From Verrucomicrobiota bacterium (GTDB taxonomy: Bacteria > Verrucomicrobiota > Verrucomicrobiia > Opitutales > JABDGR01): a DNA stretch of 39,444 nt. A program made the translations under genes and the position numbers. The notes under the pieces were generated by a model. That model saw only the letters and a program-made list of their open reading frames with translations, searched no databases and had not been told where the DNA came from. Below, in pieces: positions 26,271 through 38,746 of this stretch (position 1 is its first letter; each line of letters begins with the position of its first letter). The stretch covers positions 1-39,444 of the forward strand of contig JABDGR010000008.1 in the NCBI GenBank assembly GCA_013285985.1, given 5' to 3'.

Positions 26271-27743
26271 TCAGGTCGCTGACCAGACCAGCAGCAGCGC
26301 CAGTGTGCCAATGAGGTAGCTCTGCACGTCGGTGACGGCAAACAGCACCGGGTCGTCGTACAATTGACCACGGTGGGCGAGGAGCCACATGCGACTGAGC
26401 CAGTACATCAGCAATGGGCAAATGAGCAGTAGCAGGCCGGGATGATGATACAGAATAATAACTTGCGCACTATTGACATACAACGCCAGCACGAGGACGG
26501 ACAGATAGCCGCTCGCCACGCCGAAATTATTGATCATCTCCAGGTCGCCCACCACGTAGCCGCGGCCGCGCGCGACCGTCTGGTTGCGTTGTTTCAGCGA
26601 GCGCAGTTCCTGCAGCCGTTTCATCATTGCCAGGCTCAAAAAGATGAACATGGAAAACCCCAGCAGCCAGGATGAGAAGACGATATCCGTGGCCACGTGT
26701 CCCGCAATCAGGCGAAGGGTGTAGAGCCCCGACAGCACAAACACATCGAGCACGGCGACCTCCTTGAAGAGCAGTGTGTAGGCGATGGCGAAAAAGCCGT
26801 AAGCCAACAGCACCAGGGTGAATTTCGGCAGCACGGCCAGCGAGAGGGCCAAGGGCAAAACCAGCAATAGCGGCCCACCCGCGAACGCCCACGGCAAATA
26901 CAAACGCCCCGAGGCCAGGGGGCGGTTTCGTTTCGACACATGTTGCCGGTCTGCGGCCAAATCAAACAAGTCGTTCAGCACATACACTCCTGAGGCAAAG
27001 AGACAGAAGGCGGCGAACGCCAACACTGCCGCCCACAGCACCACCAGATTGCGGAGGTTGTGGGACGTGATGACCGGAACGAAAACGATGATGTTCTTTA
27101 CCCATTGATACGGGCGCAGCGTCTGCCAGACCGCCTCGGCGTGGTCTGATGGTCCGGGAAATTCCGCCGACACGCGCCCTTCGCTCCGCAATTGGGACGC
27201 GAGCGCCCGCGGCGCATTCACCACCAGGATATTTTTTGCGCCCGCCCAGACGGGCAGGTCCACATAGGAATTTCCGGCGTAATCGAAACCGCCCCGGCCA
27301 AACTTTGCGGTGAGCGCGGCGCATTTGGCCGGCCCGCGCAGGTTGGTTTGCCCGTCGCTGCCGAGCACCTCGTCAAACAAACCCGTGTGTGCAGCCACTT
27401 TTTCCACCAGTACCCGGTCGGAAGCACTGACGAGGAGCAGCCGGCGCCCGCATTTTTTTTCTGCGCGCAAAAATTCAACAAAAGGTTCGTTGTAGGGCAG
27501 CAGGGTGGGGTCGATGGTCGCGCGGGCGGCGACCTCCCGTTTTAAATTTGCCCGCCCCCGCAGCAACCAGATAGGGACCAGAAAAATGAAAAGCAGGTTG
27601 CGCCGCAACAGCACCGCCAGCGATTCCCAGAGCAGGTCCGAAAGGATCAGCGTTCCATCCAAATCCACGCAGAGTGGAACCGGCGAGGAAGAGGTTGCTT
27701 CCGGCGGGGCTGAAGCGGTTTGGGGAGGGCGGGCCAAGCCCAT
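26271..27743 (-). CDS. HAD-UbiA fusion prenyltransferase (polyprenyl-phosphate phosphoribosyltransferase-like)
   Basis: A 490-residue fusion. Residues 20-210 are a HAD phosphatase-like domain with DLDGTL (D27, D29), LLLVSASD and GRGGFDYAGNSYVDLPVW. Residues 215-490 are a UbiA-type membrane domain with about eight helices. The prenyl-diphosphate site is NDLFDLAADRQH (N257, D258, D261, D265), then KRNRPLASG. The nearest family I can name is decaprenylphosphoryl-5-phosphoribose synthase (Rv3806c), where the HAD part would remove the phosphate that in mycobacteria is removed by a separate enzyme. Other UbiA prenyltransferases also carry HAD domains. It heads a four-gene run with oxidoreductases suited to convert the transferred sugar. 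Confidence 0.85.
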   Translation of the reverse strand: MGLARPPQTASAPPEATSSSPVPLCVDLDGTLILSDLLWESLAVLLRRNLLFIFLVPIWLLRGRANLKREVAARATIDPTLLPYNEPFVEFLRAEKKCGRRLLLVSASDRVLVEKVAAHTGLFDEVLGSDGQTNLRGPAKCAALTAKFGRGGFDYAGNSYVDLPVWAGAKNILVVNAPRALASQLRSEGRVSAEFPGPSDHAEAVWQTLRPYQWVKNIIVFVPVITSHNLRNLVVLWAAVLAFAAFCLFASGVYVLNDLFDLAADRQHVSKRNRPLASGRLYLPWAFAGGPLLLVLPLALSLAVLPKFTLVLLAYGFFAIAYTLLFKEVAVLDVFVLSGLYTLRLIAGHVATDIVFSSWLLGFSMFIFLSLAMMKRLQELRSLKQRNQTVARGRGYVVGDLEMINNFGVASGYLSVLVLALYVNSAQVIILYHHPGLLLLICPLLMYWLSRMWLLAHRGQLYDDPVLFAVTDVQSYLIGTLALLLVWSAT

Positions 27744-31149: not shown

Positions 31150-31824
31150 ATGTTCTCGTGTTTTACCCCCAGACACCTTGCGATGGCCGGCATTTTGCTG
31201 GCCGCCGCAGCGCGTGCCGCGGATGCGCCCCCGGCGGCGAGTGGCAGCCAGCCCAGCGCATCAGTCACGGCTGAGAACCTGACGACCAGCGCCATCACCT
31301 TTCTGCCGCAGATTACAGATAATTACTCCCGGGCCAACTGGATGGCCATCGAAGTGGATTTCGATGCCAAGCCCGCCAACAAGGTGATCAACGACGTCGC
31401 CGTCACGTTGATGCTCGCCTGGGACAAGCCGGGCGCGACTCCTCCGGTGGACTTGGTCATCGCTTCCACGGTCAAACTGGTTGGTGCCATCGGCGGCAAG
31501 CGCAACGTGGTATTTTTCTTTGTCCCGCCGGAAACCCTCGCCCGCTCCAGCACAGGAACCCCATATGACGCCAACCACGCGCCCAAGTACTTTGCGGTTC
31601 AATATAAAGTCGGTGATGCCGCGCTCCCGCTCGGCCGGAGTGATTACGCGCCCTCCTTTCCCAAGCCCGAATTTGCAAGCAGCTTTATTACGATGGCCAG
31701 CGGCCTGGCGACTACAAGGGGCCTGCTGTTTTCTGAGACAACCGTGCCTTCTTATATCCTGGCCGCAGTCCTGCAGCGGATCGGTTCCAACGCATTCCCG
31801 ACATTTTTCTCGCCAGGTGGCTGA
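31150..31824 (+). CDS. small exported protein of the pilus-like locus (Amuc_1102-like position)
   Basis: A 224-residue protein with a short signal peptide (MAGILLAAAARAADA; the ATG at 31183 is an alternative start). A Ser- and Ala-rich linker precedes a beta-rich domain (VTAENLTTSAITFLP, WMAIEVDFDAKP, VINDVAVTLMLAWDKP, KRNVVFFFVPPETLAR, PKYFAVQYKVG). I recognise no catalytic motif. In Akkermansia the gene before the PilM-like Amuc_1101 encodes a small exported protein, Amuc_1102, with a similar place and size. Homology to it is inferred from context and general look only. It may be a pilus-associated or envelope protein. Confidence 0.6.
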   Translation: MFSCFTPRHLAMAGILLAAAARAADAPPAASGSQPSASVTAENLTTSAITFLPQITDNYSRANWMAIEVDFDAKPANKVINDVAVTLMLAWDKPGATPPVDLVIASTVKLVGAIGGKRNVVFFFVPPETLARSSTGTPYDANHAPKYFAVQYKVGDAALPLGRSDYAPSFPKPEFASSFITMASGLATTRGLLFSETTVPSYILAAVLQRIGSNAFPTFFSPGG

Positions 31825-31921: not shown

Positions 31922-33673
31922 ATGCCATCGAAGACCCTTGTCATCAATTGCGGCGCCAGCCATGTGGCCGCAGCCGTATTCAGCGCCGCCAACGGAAAGC
32001 TCACGTTGGAGGATTTGGACACCCGCGACCTGCGTTACGACGTGTCCAAGGACGAAGCGTGGCTGCCTGCCCTGGCGGAAGGCTTGCGCGACCTCTCGCG
32101 TTCGAACTCCCGGTTCCGCGGTCGGGCCACTTTCATTTTGCCCGGCTACCAACTGCTCATCAAGCCGATCAAGGTTCCCCACGTCGAAGCGGCCAAGCAG
32201 GCGCAAATCATTGCCTTTGAAGCGCAAAACAACATTCCGTTCCCGCTGACGGAGGCCGTGTGGGGCAGCCAGGTCATCGCGGATGACGGCATTGAAACCG
32301 AGGTGTTGCTCGCCGCGCAAAAAGCGGAGGCCGCGAACCGCTTTTGCGGCTTGATGGCGACGATTGGCTTTCAGCCCGTTTCACTGCAACCCAGCTCTCT
32401 TTTAGACTACAACGCCTACAAACATGTCCACGGCGCGGATGTCGAGGACACCCTGATGGTCAACATCGGTGCGCGCTCCACCAACCTCACCTTTGTCAGC
32501 CCCGCCGGCCTGTTCATTCGCAACGTCAGCCTTGGCGGCAATGCCTTGACTCAGGGAGTGGCCGATACTTTGGGCAAGAGCTTCACCCAGGCCGAGGAAC
32601 TCAAGGTCGCGTTTTATTCCGGCCAGACCACTTTTGAGGCGGATGATCCGGCGGTGGCCCCGCTTCAAGCCAAGGCGCAGGACTTCATGAAGCGCCTGAG
32701 CCAGCAGATTACCCAGTCGATCATTGCCTATCGTCGCGCCAGCAACCGCGCCGCACCCCAACGCATTTTGCTCACCGGCCGCGGCAGCCTGCTCTCCGGC
32801 CTGCCGGAATTTTTGAGCGAAGCCCAGAAGGTCTCGGTGGATTATTATAACCCGACCGGCACAGTGAGGGCCGCCTCGCGTCTCGGCCAGGGCGTGATGG
32901 AGCAATATTATTACCAGATCAGTGAATGTGTGGGCGAAGCCGCCCGCTTGGTCAAATCCGACGCCATGGGGGTGAACCTGCTGCCGCCGCTTATCCGCGC
33001 GCGCATGCTCTTCAACCGCCAGAAGCCTTTCCTCGTTTTGTCAGCCCTGTGCCTGGCCCTGGCGCCCCTGCCGATGCTGTATTATTTTTATCAGCAAAAC
33101 AGCATCATCAAGAGCGAGCGGGCACAGTACGACACCCGCACCAAATCCCTGGCGGGCCTAACCACGCAAATTCAGCAAAAGTCCGACGAGGCGACCACGA
33201 CGCGCAAGCAGATTGCCGACTTGGAAAACCTGATGAATTCGCGTTTTAACTGGATTCAATTTTTTCAGAAGCTTCAGGACACCCTCGTTGGCATCAAGGA
33301 CGTCTGGCTGGACAACCTTGATGTGATCCGCACTGCCGCCCCCGTGACCGCGAGCGACGCCGCTGGCACGCCGTCCACGGCCACTGCCAAAACAACGACG
33401 GCCGCCCCTCTCACCCCGCCCCCGCCCGCCATATCCTACAAGCTGCACGTCAAAGGCCGGCTGTTGCTCCATGCGGATAATCCCGATGCCACTGACAAGA
33501 CGGCCCTCCGCGCCGATGCCCAGAGCCGCCTGAACAACTTGCGCAACAGCTTCAAGTCCATCCCCTTCGTCAAAGACATTGATGAAAGCGGCTCGAAGAC
33601 TGACTTTGTGTCCAACCCCAACCTGGTCACTTTCGAGTTCACGGTCATCATTAATCCTGAGAGCCCGTTGTGA
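31922..33673 (+). CDS. PilM-PilN fusion, inner-membrane assembly protein of a type IV pilus-like system
   Basis: A 583-residue protein. Residues 1-345 are a PilM-type actin fold: INCGASHVAAAVFS near the start, IIAFEAQNNIPFPLTEAVWG, MVNIGARSTNLTFV and LTGRGSLLSGLPEFL. Then NLLPP at 352-356, within GVNLLPPLIRARM, is the PilN N-terminal peptide that in normal systems binds the groove of PilM. A membrane helix (369-390), a coiled coil (about 393-435), a Thr-, Ala- and Pro-rich loop and a PilN-like ferredoxin-type domain follow. The cytoplasmic and periplasmic parts are thus covalently joined. It corresponds in position to Amuc_1101. The PilO-like gene follows after 55 bases. In known systems PilM-N-O-P aligns the motor with the secretin. 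Confidence 0.85.
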   Translation: MPSKTLVINCGASHVAAAVFSAANGKLTLEDLDTRDLRYDVSKDEAWLPALAEGLRDLSRSNSRFRGRATFILPGYQLLIKPIKVPHVEAAKQAQIIAFEAQNNIPFPLTEAVWGSQVIADDGIETEVLLAAQKAEAANRFCGLMATIGFQPVSLQPSSLLDYNAYKHVHGADVEDTLMVNIGARSTNLTFVSPAGLFIRNVSLGGNALTQGVADTLGKSFTQAEELKVAFYSGQTTFEADDPAVAPLQAKAQDFMKRLSQQITQSIIAYRRASNRAAPQRILLTGRGSLLSGLPEFLSEAQKVSVDYYNPTGTVRAASRLGQGVMEQYYYQISECVGEAARLVKSDAMGVNLLPPLIRARMLFNRQKPFLVLSALCLALAPLPMLYYFYQQNSIIKSERAQYDTRTKSLAGLTTQIQQKSDEATTTRKQIADLENLMNSRFNWIQFFQKLQDTLVGIKDVWLDNLDVIRTAAPVTASDAAGTPSTATAKTTTAAPLTPPPPAISYKLHVKGRLLLHADNPDATDKTALRADAQSRLNNLRNSFKSIPFVKDIDESGSKTDFVSNPNLVTFEFTVIINPESPL

Positions 33674-33728: not shown

Positions 33729-34787
33729 ATGGATTTCGTGAAACGCTACCCGTTATTGACCGCCGTGCTGGCTGTGTGCGTGACCGCTTTCGCGGTCGAG
33801 TTGTTTTTCCTGTGGAGGTTCAGCACCAACGCCACCACCTTGCAGTCCCAATTGAAGCAAAGCCAGTCCAAGGCTGAAACTGCCGCGCGGCAGACCCCCG
33901 CCCCCAGCGACCAAAATCTGGCCGATGCCACCAAAAACGTGGACGACCTGAATGCGGAGCTCGCCGACGTCCACAAGACTTTGCAAGACACTCCGGAAAA
34001 GATCGAATACACCCCTCCGCCCAAGGGTGATGACGCCGGCACGGATTTGACAGTCGAAATCCAGCAATATGCGGACAAGATGCAGGCGAAGGCCACGGAA
34101 AAAGGCGTAATCCTGCCCACGCCGAAAAATTACGGCTTCGGCATGGCTCTTTATGTCGGCCAGGGAGTTTCCCCTCCTCCAGTGGATAAAATCCCGGCGG
34201 TGTACAAACAGTTGAAAGTCCTCGACTATGTCGTGGGCCATCTCCTCGACGACGCCAAGCTGCCGGATCAAAAAATGAAAATCGTGTCCATCGACCGTGA
34301 AGATGTGGCCTCGGTCACGGCGTCCGTGGGTGGTCCGCCTCCCGGCGGCGATCAGGGAACCAGCGGGCTGGATCTGTTTGTGGTTGACCCCACGGTCACC
34401 GCCCGCGTCCCCGGTGCAATCAACACCCTGGCTTTTCGGATTCGATTCGTCGGATATAGTGAGTCGCTGCGCATCCTCCTCAACGATTTGGCCAAATTCG
34501 ACCTTCCCCTTGTCGTGCGCAGCATTGATGTCGAACCGGCCCAGGCGGATCGCGCCCTCACCGGCCCGCTCCCTGGTCCTGCCACCGGCTCTGCGGCGGC
34601 GGCCGCGGCGGACAACTCGGCCCGCCGGCCCGTCATTACAGAAAACTTTTCCCAGTTCACCATCGTGATCGAATACGTCGAGCTTCCGGCGCCTCCCGCC
34701 AGCCCGGCCGCCACCGATGCCGCCGCTGCGAGCGGTACTTCGCCCGCGGCCGCTTCCGGCGCCGCCGCCTCGGGAACTGCCCACTAA
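33729..34787 (+). CDS. PilO-like membrane-anchored protein (Amuc_1100-like)
   Basis: A 352-residue protein with a short cytosolic N-terminus MDFVKRYPLLT and one membrane helix (about 8-28). A periplasmic coiled coil follows (TLQSQLKQSQSKAETAARQT, NVDDLNAELADVHKTLQDTP). The globular part has two alpha/beta units (VYKQLKVLDYVVGHLLDDAK, TLAFRIRFVGYSESLRILLND), as in PilO and PilN folds. An Ala- and Ser-rich tail ends it. In order and architecture it corresponds to Amuc_1100, the Akkermansia protein known for host effects and for structural likeness to PilO-type proteins. The ATG at 33729 follows CGCCTGCCCCCC; the open frame upstream overlaps the PilM-PilN gene and is not used. Confidence 0.75.
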   Translation: MDFVKRYPLLTAVLAVCVTAFAVELFFLWRFSTNATTLQSQLKQSQSKAETAARQTPAPSDQNLADATKNVDDLNAELADVHKTLQDTPEKIEYTPPPKGDDAGTDLTVEIQQYADKMQAKATEKGVILPTPKNYGFGMALYVGQGVSPPPVDKIPAVYKQLKVLDYVVGHLLDDAKLPDQKMKIVSIDREDVASVTASVGGPPPGGDQGTSGLDLFVVDPTVTARVPGAINTLAFRIRFVGYSESLRILLNDLAKFDLPLVVRSIDVEPAQADRALTGPLPGPATGSAAAAAADNSARRPVITENFSQFTIVIEYVELPAPPASPAATDAAAASGTSPAAASGAAASGTAH

Positions 34788-34851: not shown

Positions 34852-35760
34852 ATGAAAAAATATTACGACAAAGTCTTGTTCCTCCTCGCGCTCGTGGTGT
34901 TGGGCTTGGGGGCCGGCATCTTTTTCAAAAAAGGCGGCGTGCCCAAGAGCCCGGCGCTGCCGGCGGCGAAACTTAGCGGCGATGCCTTTACCACGATTCC
35001 CGCGCCCACTTTCGACAAAACCACTTACACTTGGGAGTCGCCGCCGGATCAACGCGAGGACGATCCGGGTTGGATCTATTACGTCTTCACCCCGCCAAAA
35101 ATTTGGTGGGAGCAAGGCACCGGCTGGATCGCCGTGCCCCCCGTGCCCATCGTGCCGGTTCCCTTTGGCCTGCATCTGGTGTCCGCAAAAAAAGAACTCT
35201 ACCGCGTTCAGTTGCAGGGCACCTCCGGCAATGGCGACAAGGATGACGAAATCAATTTCAGCGATGAAGAAACCGGCCTGGATTTCCATCTGAAGCTCGG
35301 CCAGGAAAGCGAACTCCACAAAATCAAGGTCACGGACCTGAGCTTTGACCCGGTGGACAAGGGGCACGGCGTCGTGTTTAAAGCCGCCCGGGCCACCATC
35401 CTCGACGAAAGCACCGGCGAAACAGTTACTCTTACCGAAGGCGTGGAATTCGCCCCGACGGACAACCAAGTCTATGTGCTGCAAACGGACGACCCCTTCC
35501 CCTCCCAGGAATGGAAAGTCTCCTCTCAGGATTGGAAGGTCGCCGTCAAAAATGGCCAGGACGAAACGCTGAAGCAACCCGGCGGTCTGGAAGATTTCAA
35601 AGGCGACATCGTTTTTAAGGTGGTCAATCTTGACTTTGATAAGCCGTCCGTTACGGTCGAGAAACAATTCACCACCAAATCTGGCAGGAAATCCACCAAA
35701 ACGATGGAACTGACCATTACCCAAGCCCCGGCCAAGACTGAATCTTCCCCAGCGAAATAA
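34852..35760 (+). CDS. membrane-anchored protein of the pilus-like locus (Amuc_1099-like position)
   Basis: A 302-residue protein with an N-terminal membrane helix (VLFLLALVVLGLGAGIFF, about 8-25). The periplasmic part is mostly beta strand: WIYYVFTPPKIWW, LVSAKKELYRVQLQG, an acidic loop NGDKDDEINFSDEETGLDF, KIKVTDLSFDP and DIVFKVVNLDFDKPSV. No lipobox is present. Its place between the PilO-like protein and the secretin is that of PilP in classical systems, where PilP connects PilNO to PilQ. I see no clear PilP signature, so that role is a positional inference. The start ATG at 34852 is 64 bases after the preceding stop. Confidence 0.7.
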   Translation: MKKYYDKVLFLLALVVLGLGAGIFFKKGGVPKSPALPAAKLSGDAFTTIPAPTFDKTTYTWESPPDQREDDPGWIYYVFTPPKIWWEQGTGWIAVPPVPIVPVPFGLHLVSAKKELYRVQLQGTSGNGDKDDEINFSDEETGLDFHLKLGQESELHKIKVTDLSFDPVDKGHGVVFKAARATILDESTGETVTLTEGVEFAPTDNQVYVLQTDDPFPSQEWKVSSQDWKVAVKNGQDETLKQPGGLEDFKGDIVFKVVNLDFDKPSVTVEKQFTTKSGRKSTKTMELTITQAPAKTESSPAK

Positions 35761-35830: not shown

Positions 35831-38746
35831 ATGAAGACGCCCAGGAAATCCCGCCGCTCCCACGCCATCGTTCTGGCCCTCGCCGCCGGTCTGCTTGCTG
35901 GGGCCATTGCCCTCCCAACTCCGCTTCGCGCCCAAGCCGGCTCCTCCAGCGAGCTTGCCAACGAGAAGATGCAACTCCAGTTGCAAGCCCTTGACGCCAA
36001 AACCACCGGGGACTACGCCAAGGCCAAGGACCTGCTCAACAAGATTATCGCCCTTGACCCCAAGGACCCCAACAACACCGACGTGCAACGGCAGATTGCG
36101 ACCATTGATGCCGCACTCGCCAGCCAAAGCGCGGGCAAGCCCACCATTTTCGATGCCAACGGTTCCGGCTCGGCGGCCCCCTCCGCCATGACGGCGCGCC
36201 AACTCGCGGCCGACAGTCCCGCCCCGGCCACGACGACGGACACCGCCGCCCCCGCGATCACTTCTGAATCCAAGACGGCCTTGGATGCCGAAGCCGCGCG
36301 CCAGGCCGGGCAAATTGCCTCCATTCGCAAGTCCATCGAGAAAGCGAAAGCTCTCGAAGCCTCCGGTGATTATGCCGGAGCGCGCGATGCGCTCGACGCC
36401 GCCAAGGCGCAAGTTCCCCCCGGCATGGCGTTTGCGGACATCCGCAACGCGATTGCCCAGGAAACAGCCAACAGTTGGTATTTGCAGGCGGTCGCCGACT
36501 ACAACGGCAAAAAACTGGCCACCGCGAAGGATGACCTCGCCAAGTATGTCGAAGTCAAAGGCGGTGCTGATTCCCGCTCCAACCAGCTGCAAAAGAACAT
36601 TGCGGCGGCGCAGAAAAACCCCCTTAGCCAGGATATCGCTCAAATCAGCCCCGGCTTCGAGGAATTACAGGATAAAGTCCAGCAGCTCATGGTCACCGGC
36701 CGCGCCCAGTTCCTTTATGGCGACTTTGATGGGGCGATGAAAACCTTCAACGTGGTGATTACCTATTCCCCCGACAATATCGAAGCCAAGGCCTATATGA
36801 TGCAAATCAACCAAATCCAGGTTGATAAAGGCTACATGAACCGCTTGCAGACCCGCGCGAACATGCTCTCGCAAGTGACCGATGACTGGTCCCTCCCGGT
36901 CTACAACCAGGCGGCGGCGGCGGAAGCGCCCGCTCCGGTGCAGGAGTCGGCTGAAATGAAAAAACTCCAGACCATTTTCATCCCCTCGGTGGACATCCAG
37001 GTGCCCACGCCCCTCGAACAAGTCGTCCAGGTGCTGCACGACGAATCGATCAAATTCGACCCGGATGGCAAAGGTGTCAACATGCAGGTCTTTGTCGCCG
37101 AGGGTGATCAAATGCCCAAGGTCACGCTGGCCGGGGTGACCAACCTCAGCATTGCCGAAATACTTTCCATTGCTTGCAAAAAAGCCGGTTACGGTTACGG
37201 GTCCGAGGGCCACATCATTGCGCTGCGCAAGGGTGGCACGGGCGACTCGTCCGCCAATTCCGGTTTTGTGCGCCAGACGATCGGACTCAGCGACGGCGCG
37301 CAAGAGCTGCTCGGTTTGAGTTCCGGCGGCAGCGCTGGAGCGACCAGCGCCGGCCCGGCGACTGCGGCCAACCCCTTTGAAACGCCCGGTGGCAACACCA
37401 CCGCCGCTGCGGCGGCCCCGGCGGACACCTCCGGCGCCAGTTCGTCGGACCTCGCGGATCAGCTCCAAAAGAAGTTCGTTGAAAACGGCATTGAATTCCC
37501 CCCGGGCTCCAAGCTGACCCTGCTGGGCAGAACCAACAGCAAAATCAGCGTCTTCAACACCCTGGAGAACATCAACAGTCTGCGTAATTTCCTGAATACT
37601 CTCAGCGACGTCAAACAGGTTCAAATCGAATCCCGCTTCCTGGACGTCACCCAAAGCGCGCTCAAGTCTTTTGGCGCGCGCTGGGCCGCCACCAACAGCC
37701 GCTTGCCCAATGACTTCCTCCAGACCGGCAGCAGCGGCCAGACCAGCAATTTGCGCTCGCTCAGCACAACCTTCTCCCAGGGTTCGGCCAATGCTGCGCC
37801 GACCGTTATCACCGGTTTGACCGGCCAAACGATTAATGGCACCTTGGGCGGGAGCGGCCTCACGTTCCTTCCGGGTTCACTCATCGACAACCAAGTCATC
37901 CCGACCTTGCCGACGGCCGTCAATACCGGCGTCGCTTCTTCCGATGTGTTTAGCGGCGTGGTCAGCTGGCTGGATGGCTATCGCATTCAACTGGTTCTCG
38001 ATATGCTCGACCAGGAGAACGGCTCGGACCTCATGACCTCTCCCAAGGTCACCGTCATGGATGGCGTCGACGCCACCATCCTCGTGGCCCAAGATTTCAA
38101 GTACCCGCAACAATTTCAGGCGGTGACGGCCACGGTCAGCCCGGCTTCCGGCAACAGTGGTGCGGGTGGTGGTATCGCCGTTGCGGCGGGCAACCCCAAT
38201 CAATTCGTGGACGAGAACATTGGTGTCTCGATGCGGGTGCATCCCGATGTGCAGCCGGATGATTCCATCAAGATCGCCCTCGACCCGAAGGTGACGGAGT
38301 TTGACGGCTTTGTTGAATACGGCAGCGCCTCCATCGCCATTCAAGGCACCATCACGGCCATCGTGCCGTCGGGCGTCATTCAGCCCATTTTTGACCAGCG
38401 CGAAATGAGCACCACGGTCACCGTCTCAGACGGCGCCACGATCGTCATGGGCGGCATGACCCGCGACGAAGTTGACTCAGTCAATGACAAGGTGCCCGTC
38501 CTTGGCGACATTCCCCTGCTGGGCCGACTGTTCCAGTCGAAGGCCGAGACCTCGGAGAAGCGTAACCTGCTGATCTTTGTCACCGCCAACCTTATCGGCC
38601 CCGGTGGTTCACCGGCGCTGCAAACCTTCCAAGGCCTCCAGCCGGGTACGCTCTTCACGAACCCGACCCTGGTCATGCCTTCCGGCAGTTTTGAACGCAC
38701 GCCCGCCAAATCGTTGGTGACGCCCGCCGCGGCGCCTCAACCGTAA
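35831..38746 (+). CDS. secretin with N-terminal TPR-like region (PilQ/GspD superfamily, Amuc_1098-like)
   Basis: A 971-residue outer-membrane secretin with signal peptide ending near LRAQA. Residues about 35-360 are helical and TPR-like (LDAKTTGDYAKAKDLLNKIIALDP, RAQFLYGDFDGAMKTFNVVITYSPDNIEAKAY). At about 381-468 an N0/STN-type domain appears (PSVDIQVPTPLEQVVQVLHD, SIAEILSIACKKAGYGY). An N3-like part follows around 560-600. The secretin core begins at VKQVQIESRFLDV (594) and includes the conserved VPVLGDIPLLGRLF (888-901) and RNLLIFVTANLI. A Ser- and Ala-rich segment (about 495-535) sits between. No lipobox is seen, so a pilotin or self-insertion is needed. It ends the block, followed by a strong terminator. 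Confidence 0.9.
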   Translation: MKTPRKSRRSHAIVLALAAGLLAGAIALPTPLRAQAGSSSELANEKMQLQLQALDAKTTGDYAKAKDLLNKIIALDPKDPNNTDVQRQIATIDAALASQSAGKPTIFDANGSGSAAPSAMTARQLAADSPAPATTTDTAAPAITSESKTALDAEAARQAGQIASIRKSIEKAKALEASGDYAGARDALDAAKAQVPPGMAFADIRNAIAQETANSWYLQAVADYNGKKLATAKDDLAKYVEVKGGADSRSNQLQKNIAAAQKNPLSQDIAQISPGFEELQDKVQQLMVTGRAQFLYGDFDGAMKTFNVVITYSPDNIEAKAYMMQINQIQVDKGYMNRLQTRANMLSQVTDDWSLPVYNQAAAAEAPAPVQESAEMKKLQTIFIPSVDIQVPTPLEQVVQVLHDESIKFDPDGKGVNMQVFVAEGDQMPKVTLAGVTNLSIAEILSIACKKAGYGYGSEGHIIALRKGGTGDSSANSGFVRQTIGLSDGAQELLGLSSGGSAGATSAGPATAANPFETPGGNTTAAAAAPADTSGASSSDLADQLQKKFVENGIEFPPGSKLTLLGRTNSKISVFNTLENINSLRNFLNTLSDVKQVQIESRFLDVTQSALKSFGARWAATNSRLPNDFLQTGSSGQTSNLRSLSTTFSQGSANAAPTVITGLTGQTINGTLGGSGLTFLPGSLIDNQVIPTLPTAVNTGVASSDVFSGVVSWLDGYRIQLVLDMLDQENGSDLMTSPKVTVMDGVDATILVAQDFKYPQQFQAVTATVSPASGNSGAGGGIAVAAGNPNQFVDENIGVSMRVHPDVQPDDSIKIALDPKVTEFDGFVEYGSASIAIQGTITAIVPSGVIQPIFDQREMSTTVTVSDGATIVMGGMTRDEVDSVNDKVPVLGDIPLLGRLFQSKAETSEKRNLLIFVTANLIGPGGSPALQTFQGLQPGTLFTNPTLVMPSGSFERTPAKSLVTPAAAPQP

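Follow-up and report, generated by a model that had tools for sequence, protein, structure and literature searches.

A one-chain PilM–PilN protein in the type IV pilus locus of Verrucomicrobiota, with an NLLP peptide probably docked in cis

Results

PilM and PilN share one reading frame

The open reading frame at 31922-33673 of the window, i.e. the whole stretch of 39,444 nucleotides analysed here, encodes PilM and, joined to it through a short linker, all of PilN. It runs on the forward strand as a single frame, from an ATG at 31922 to a stop codon at 33671-33673, and specifies a protein of 583 amino acids and 63.7 kDa. We consider it probable that this protein acts as a one-chain PilM–PilN stator, whose NLLP peptide is most likely docked on its own PilM domain. 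The features of the gene are the following.

31922-33673, forward strand: PilM–PilN fusion ORF, divergent Amuc_1101-like, 583 aa
31922-32950, forward strand: PilM domain, actin-like, residues 1-343 (Pfam PilM_2; PDB PilM by profile and fold)
32951-32974, forward strand: linker, residues 344-351 (AlphaFold model; alignment of 142 homologues)
32975-32986, forward strand: PilN docking motif N352-L-L-P355 (L353/P355 conservation in alignments)
33026-33091, forward strand: transmembrane helix, residues ~369-390 (hydropathy; helix in model)
33092-33295, forward strand: long periplasmic helix, residues ~391-458, predicted to form a coiled coil like that of PilN (model; PilN profile match)
33302-33652, forward strand: PilN-like ferredoxin-type domain, residues 461-577 (secondary structure; 4BHQ and 3JC8 profile matches)

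A sequence-only reading had placed PilM, the NLLP peptide, a membrane helix, a coiled coil and a PilN-like domain in this one 583-residue frame, with which both the ORF and the profile matches agree. The PilN half spans about residues 351-583. Hydropathy peaks at residues ~369-390, and the single membrane helix lies after the NLLP motif, a PilN-like arrangement also found in the model and the alignment.

The N-terminal assignment is direct, with Pfam PilM_2 matching residues 9-328 at 64.2 bits (cut-off 27) and PilM as the top fold match in Foldseek. Searched alone, the 583-residue protein gives no match to Pfam PilN. However, one homologue (L167) matches both PilM_2 (158.7 bits) and PilN (23.2 bits; cut-off 22.8) in one chain. 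The profile of a 32-member family alignment matches the Myxococcus PilN of 3JC8 starting at its residue 3 (E 1.3e-11); from residue 347 on, the family profile aligns with residues 3-200 of 3JC8 (E 4.4e-10) and with Thermus PilN 4BHQ (E 3.4e-4). In the AlphaFold model, the C-terminal half consists of a long helix to residue 458 followed by beta-beta-alpha-beta-beta elements, with a low-confidence insert at 474-499 inside the ferredoxin-type domain. Two strands, a helix and two strands after a long helix are the order expected for the ferredoxin-like fold of PilN, PilO and GspL. The PilN-like C-terminal half read from the sequence is thus borne out by the double match of L167, the family profile against solved PilN structures and the order of elements in the model.

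Since the type II secretion protein GspL shares this overall plan, the fusion might instead have been a GspL with no part in a type IV pilus. T2SSL is weakly matched in 6 of the 32 family members, and it is absent among the Pfam matches of the 583-residue protein itself. Against this very improbable reading, PilM_2 is matched in all 32 members (up to E 2.9e-45), and PilM and PilN head the matches both to PDB entries and by fold, GspL appearing only at rank 41 and over ~205 columns. On these matches, a GspL identity was rejected. The operon, with a PilO-like gene, a gene without family match and a secretin, together with a PilT in the genome, also speaks for a pilus machine.

The operon resembles that of a pilus machine

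The fusion gene is flanked by the following genes.

31150-31824, forward strand: upstream gene at the operon start, no family match, in the Amuc_1102 position, conserved (neighbourhood comparison)
33729-34787, forward strand: PilO-position gene, Amuc_1100-like (67.6 bits, below the cut-off of 180)
34852-35760, forward strand: PilP-position gene, no Pfam or NCBIfam match, conserved in the operon
35831-38746, forward strand: secretin in the PilQ position, Amuc_1098-like (337 bits, below the cut-off of 750)

Among relatives' loci with enough sequence, the PilO-position gene lies downstream of the fusion in 67/67 and the secretin in 39/39; the PilP-position gene is found in 37 loci, compared with 39 having 4.9 kb of downstream room. 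The N-terminal part of the secretin carries TPR-like repeats near residues 53-79, 171-196 and 290-319. The same genome, which is 50% complete, encodes a PilT family protein (461 bits; cut-off 319) and two PilB/GspE-like ATPases whose scores fall slightly short of the cut-offs. Motors for extension and for retraction are therefore both available, and this machine would presumably use them. Elsewhere in the window, the product of a gene at 26271-27743 on the reverse strand combines, in a single protein, a HAD phosphatase domain at the N-terminus with a UbiA prenyltransferase domain at the C-terminus.

The fusion is spread across the phylum

A match to the fusion protein was found in 346 of 388 genomes sampled across the phylum Verrucomicrobiota. 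Among the matches listed, nearly all frames are stop-free and 550-650 aa long, a few being shorter. The named relatives are Verrucomicrobiota, chiefly Opitutae/Opitutales, with Cerasicoccus among the closest, and a PilM_2 search of genomes from the same order returned, in most of them, the fused gene as the sole match. The chance that a sequencing or assembly error joined two genes is practically nil: the source genome is indeed split into 116 contigs and half complete, but the fusion is common to hundreds of independent genomes. The stop-free fused frames in these 346 genomes rule out such an error and establish the frame as genuine, in line with the original reading.

Unfused PilM also occurs in the phylum (L166, L168, L170, L171, L173 and L175). 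In these six loci, the PilM-like frames of ~336-356 aa have a separate gene directly downstream, which in most of them encodes an N-terminal VNLL or similar and in several overlaps the PilM frame by stop and start codons. The fused layout would result from joining the two frames of such a pair. Next to one unfused PilM, L168:1747-2676 encodes a 309-aa protein with a PilN-like start (MALHLNLLHEA) followed by a hydrophobic helix and a PDZ domain at about residues 158-246, a PilN–PDZ combination. The idea that fusions have lost a competing N-terminal PilM motif was dropped, since the unfused comparators of the phylum vary and their start codons are uncertain; in 133/141 fusions, the Gly11 column is preceded by 11-12 residues.

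The junction retains the NLLP motif at a fixed distance

Leu353 and Pro355 are invariant in the 32-member alignment, in which identity to the 583-residue protein is 22-45%. Among nearer relatives, Pro355 is kept in 72/72 and Leu353 in 71/72. The span from Gly338 to Pro355 measures 17 residues in 124 of 142 homologues; judged from these alignments, linker length is constrained.

A similar junction has been built artificially. In 5EOU, an engineered chimera of Pseudomonas aeruginosa PilM and PilN(1-12), the C-terminus of PilM is joined to the PilN peptide as in the natural fusion, and the family profile aligns across the junction up to the NLLP of the chimera, where 5EOU ends. By hand count on the alignment, the equivalent span is 18 residues in 5EOU versus 17 in the natural fusion. 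While the man-made chain stops after the peptide, the natural one continues through all of PilN, so that the latter is nearly the same construct extended by the rest of PilN.

Predicted structures favour a docked peptide

In the full-length AlphaFold2 model, residues 341-360 have a pLDDT of about 95. When the model is truncated at 358, residues 344-358 become a free tail devoid of secondary structure, and yet mean pLDDT remains 95 for 341-350 and 90 for 351-358. A loose tail is not expected to score so high, which points to ordered docking. Both models are closer to PilN-bound PilM, with Foldseek TMt values of 0.85-0.86 to 2YCH and 0.80-0.81 to 5EOU, than to PilN-free forms of the Pseudomonas PilM found in 5EOU (5EOX, 5EOY, 5EQ6; 0.66-0.72). 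As 5EQ6 contains AMP-PNP, nucleotide alone does not account for this difference. The predicted PilM domain resembles the closed, peptide-bound form, which AlphaFold2, being trained on PilM structures, may give regardless of the peptide. A mean-field coevolution analysis of the peptide against the PilM groove (141 sequences, Neff 101) returned scattered top pairs and no usable signal.

The intramolecular docking first proposed from the sequence is likely on this basis, i.e. the conserved NLLP motif and a peptide predicted to be ordered in both the full and the 358-residue monomers. A 1:1 ratio of PilM to PilN, the other consequence attributed to the fusion, is indeed fixed by the single covalent chain. 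Its consequence is weaker than supposed, however, separate PilM and PilN being already close to 1:1: in Thermus, the two separate proteins assemble 1:1 and 3:3 (PMC6325625), and the Myxococcus model places both in a dodecameric ring (PMC8389850).

Nucleotide-site residues are mostly lost in one branch

Lys26 of Thermus PilM is required for ATP binding, but the PilMN complex with K26A still stimulates the motor (PMC6325625). In the fusion protein, its equivalent is Ala16 (codon 31967-31969), as mapped by hand on the GAS-motif alignment with 2YCH, and the phosphate-loop Asp of the DxG motif is replaced by Asn181 (codon 32462-32464). Among 72 near relatives, the Lys is present in 1 and the Asp in 11, whereas 40 deeper-branching fusions retain them in 18 and 35 cases, respectively. 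The nucleotide-site residues thus look degenerate, with their loss concentrated in the Opitutales-like branch, and the fusion seems to predate this decay.

Discussion

The best explanation is that the fusion protein serves a type IVa-like pilus machine as its PilM–PilN stator subunit, made as a single polypeptide. Its cytoplasmic PilM domain would hold the motor ATPases. From the C-terminal helix of PilM, about eight residues would lead to the N-terminal NLLP peptide of PilN, which most likely docks back on the same PilM domain and keeps that domain closed, as in PilN-bound PilM. After crossing the membrane, the chain would end in the coiled coil and the ferredoxin-like domain of PilN, both of which are expected to pair with the PilO-like product of the next gene. 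The outcome would be a stator whose PilM cannot leave PilN. In Thermus, motor ATPase activity is roughly doubled by PilM and PilN together, but by neither alone (PMC6325625). Once fused and docked, PilMN would show this stimulating form constantly; PilB would presumably be stimulated by it, and PilM–PilN exchange would be lost as a regulatory step.

Two other docking modes have to be weighed. Each NLLP peptide could occupy the PilM groove of a neighbouring fused chain, so that a cytoplasmic ring would be cross-linked by domain swapping. PilM and PilN of Myxococcus have been modelled in a dodecameric ring (PMC8389850), and monomer AlphaFold2 models, which do not distinguish a swap from docking in cis, are compatible with it. 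Nevertheless, the tightly conserved length of the linker and the ordered tail in the 358-residue monomer model indicate that docking in cis is sterically easy, and we find the swap distinctly unlikely. Alternatively, docking could be reversible, PilM acting as a switch that opens and closes on the peptide of its own chain, in which case regulation by docking would persist within one chain. A functional dynamic contact would also explain why the motif is conserved, and the Lys and Asp kept in many deeper-branching fusions fit such a switch. Conversely, the docked tail is predicted with high confidence, and in the Opitutales-like branch, where both residues are mostly lost, this loss argues against a switch driven by nucleotide. 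Reversible docking is, in our opinion, rather unlikely.

Beyond stable docking in cis, we raise as a tentative and somewhat doubtful proposal that the PilM–PilN switch of Verrucomicrobiota is locked, with NLLP held in its own groove, PilM remaining PilN-bound and the idle nucleotide site having decayed in the Opitutales-like branch.

A fusion of PilM and PilN is as such already known. In type II secretion, PulL/GspL is described as a PilM–PilN fusion (PMC10191384, PMC6325625), but it belongs to another machine and its sequence match to the Verrucomicrobiota fusion is weak. In Clostridioides difficile, PilM and PilN of the type IV pilus are fused as PilMN (PMC6916266). The host there is monoderm, and the same review puts forward another motif for the interaction, RD(MILF)N(FYW)FS.

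The closest known counterpart is in Akkermansia, whose pilus locus Amuc_1098-1102 has neighbours corresponding to those of the fusion gene. NCBIfam NF045709, the Amuc_1101 family, matches residues 4-491 of the fusion protein at 290.7 bits (cut-off 650), which makes it a divergent homologue of Amuc_1101 rather than a member of the NF045709 equivalog. Two members of NF045709, L046 (678.7 bits) and L050 (902.6 bits), also have a PilN motif and a membrane helix after PilM, but the name of the family refers to PilM alone. Amuc_1101 itself has been annotated as FtsA (PMC5332112) and as PilM (PMC13174399), and no text naming its PilN half was found in the literature searched, most subscription papers lying outside its scope. 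What may be new here is the recognition of the PilN half in Amuc_1101-type proteins, its phylum-wide spread, the diderm motif retained in cis and the branch-specific degeneration of the nucleotide site. Within the same search, these four points were not found described.

McCallum 2016 reportedly proposed that the pilus motors are controlled through dynamic binding of PilN to PilM. PMC5424180 refers to this work as a model in which PilM–PilN interactions modulate the associations of PilB and PilT. As PilM and PilN form one chain in nearly the whole phylum, their complete dissociation is not essential there. If the switch is locked, retractile type IV pili would work without PilM–PilN exchange, against models where exchange drives extension and retraction.

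To conclude, two ideas that are usually merged can now be separated, i.e. docking of the peptide, which is conserved, and exchange of subunits, which is not available to a single chain. Besides, the Akkermansia pilus locus gains a better annotation, as its Amuc_1101-type protein contains a PilN half of which the name says nothing.
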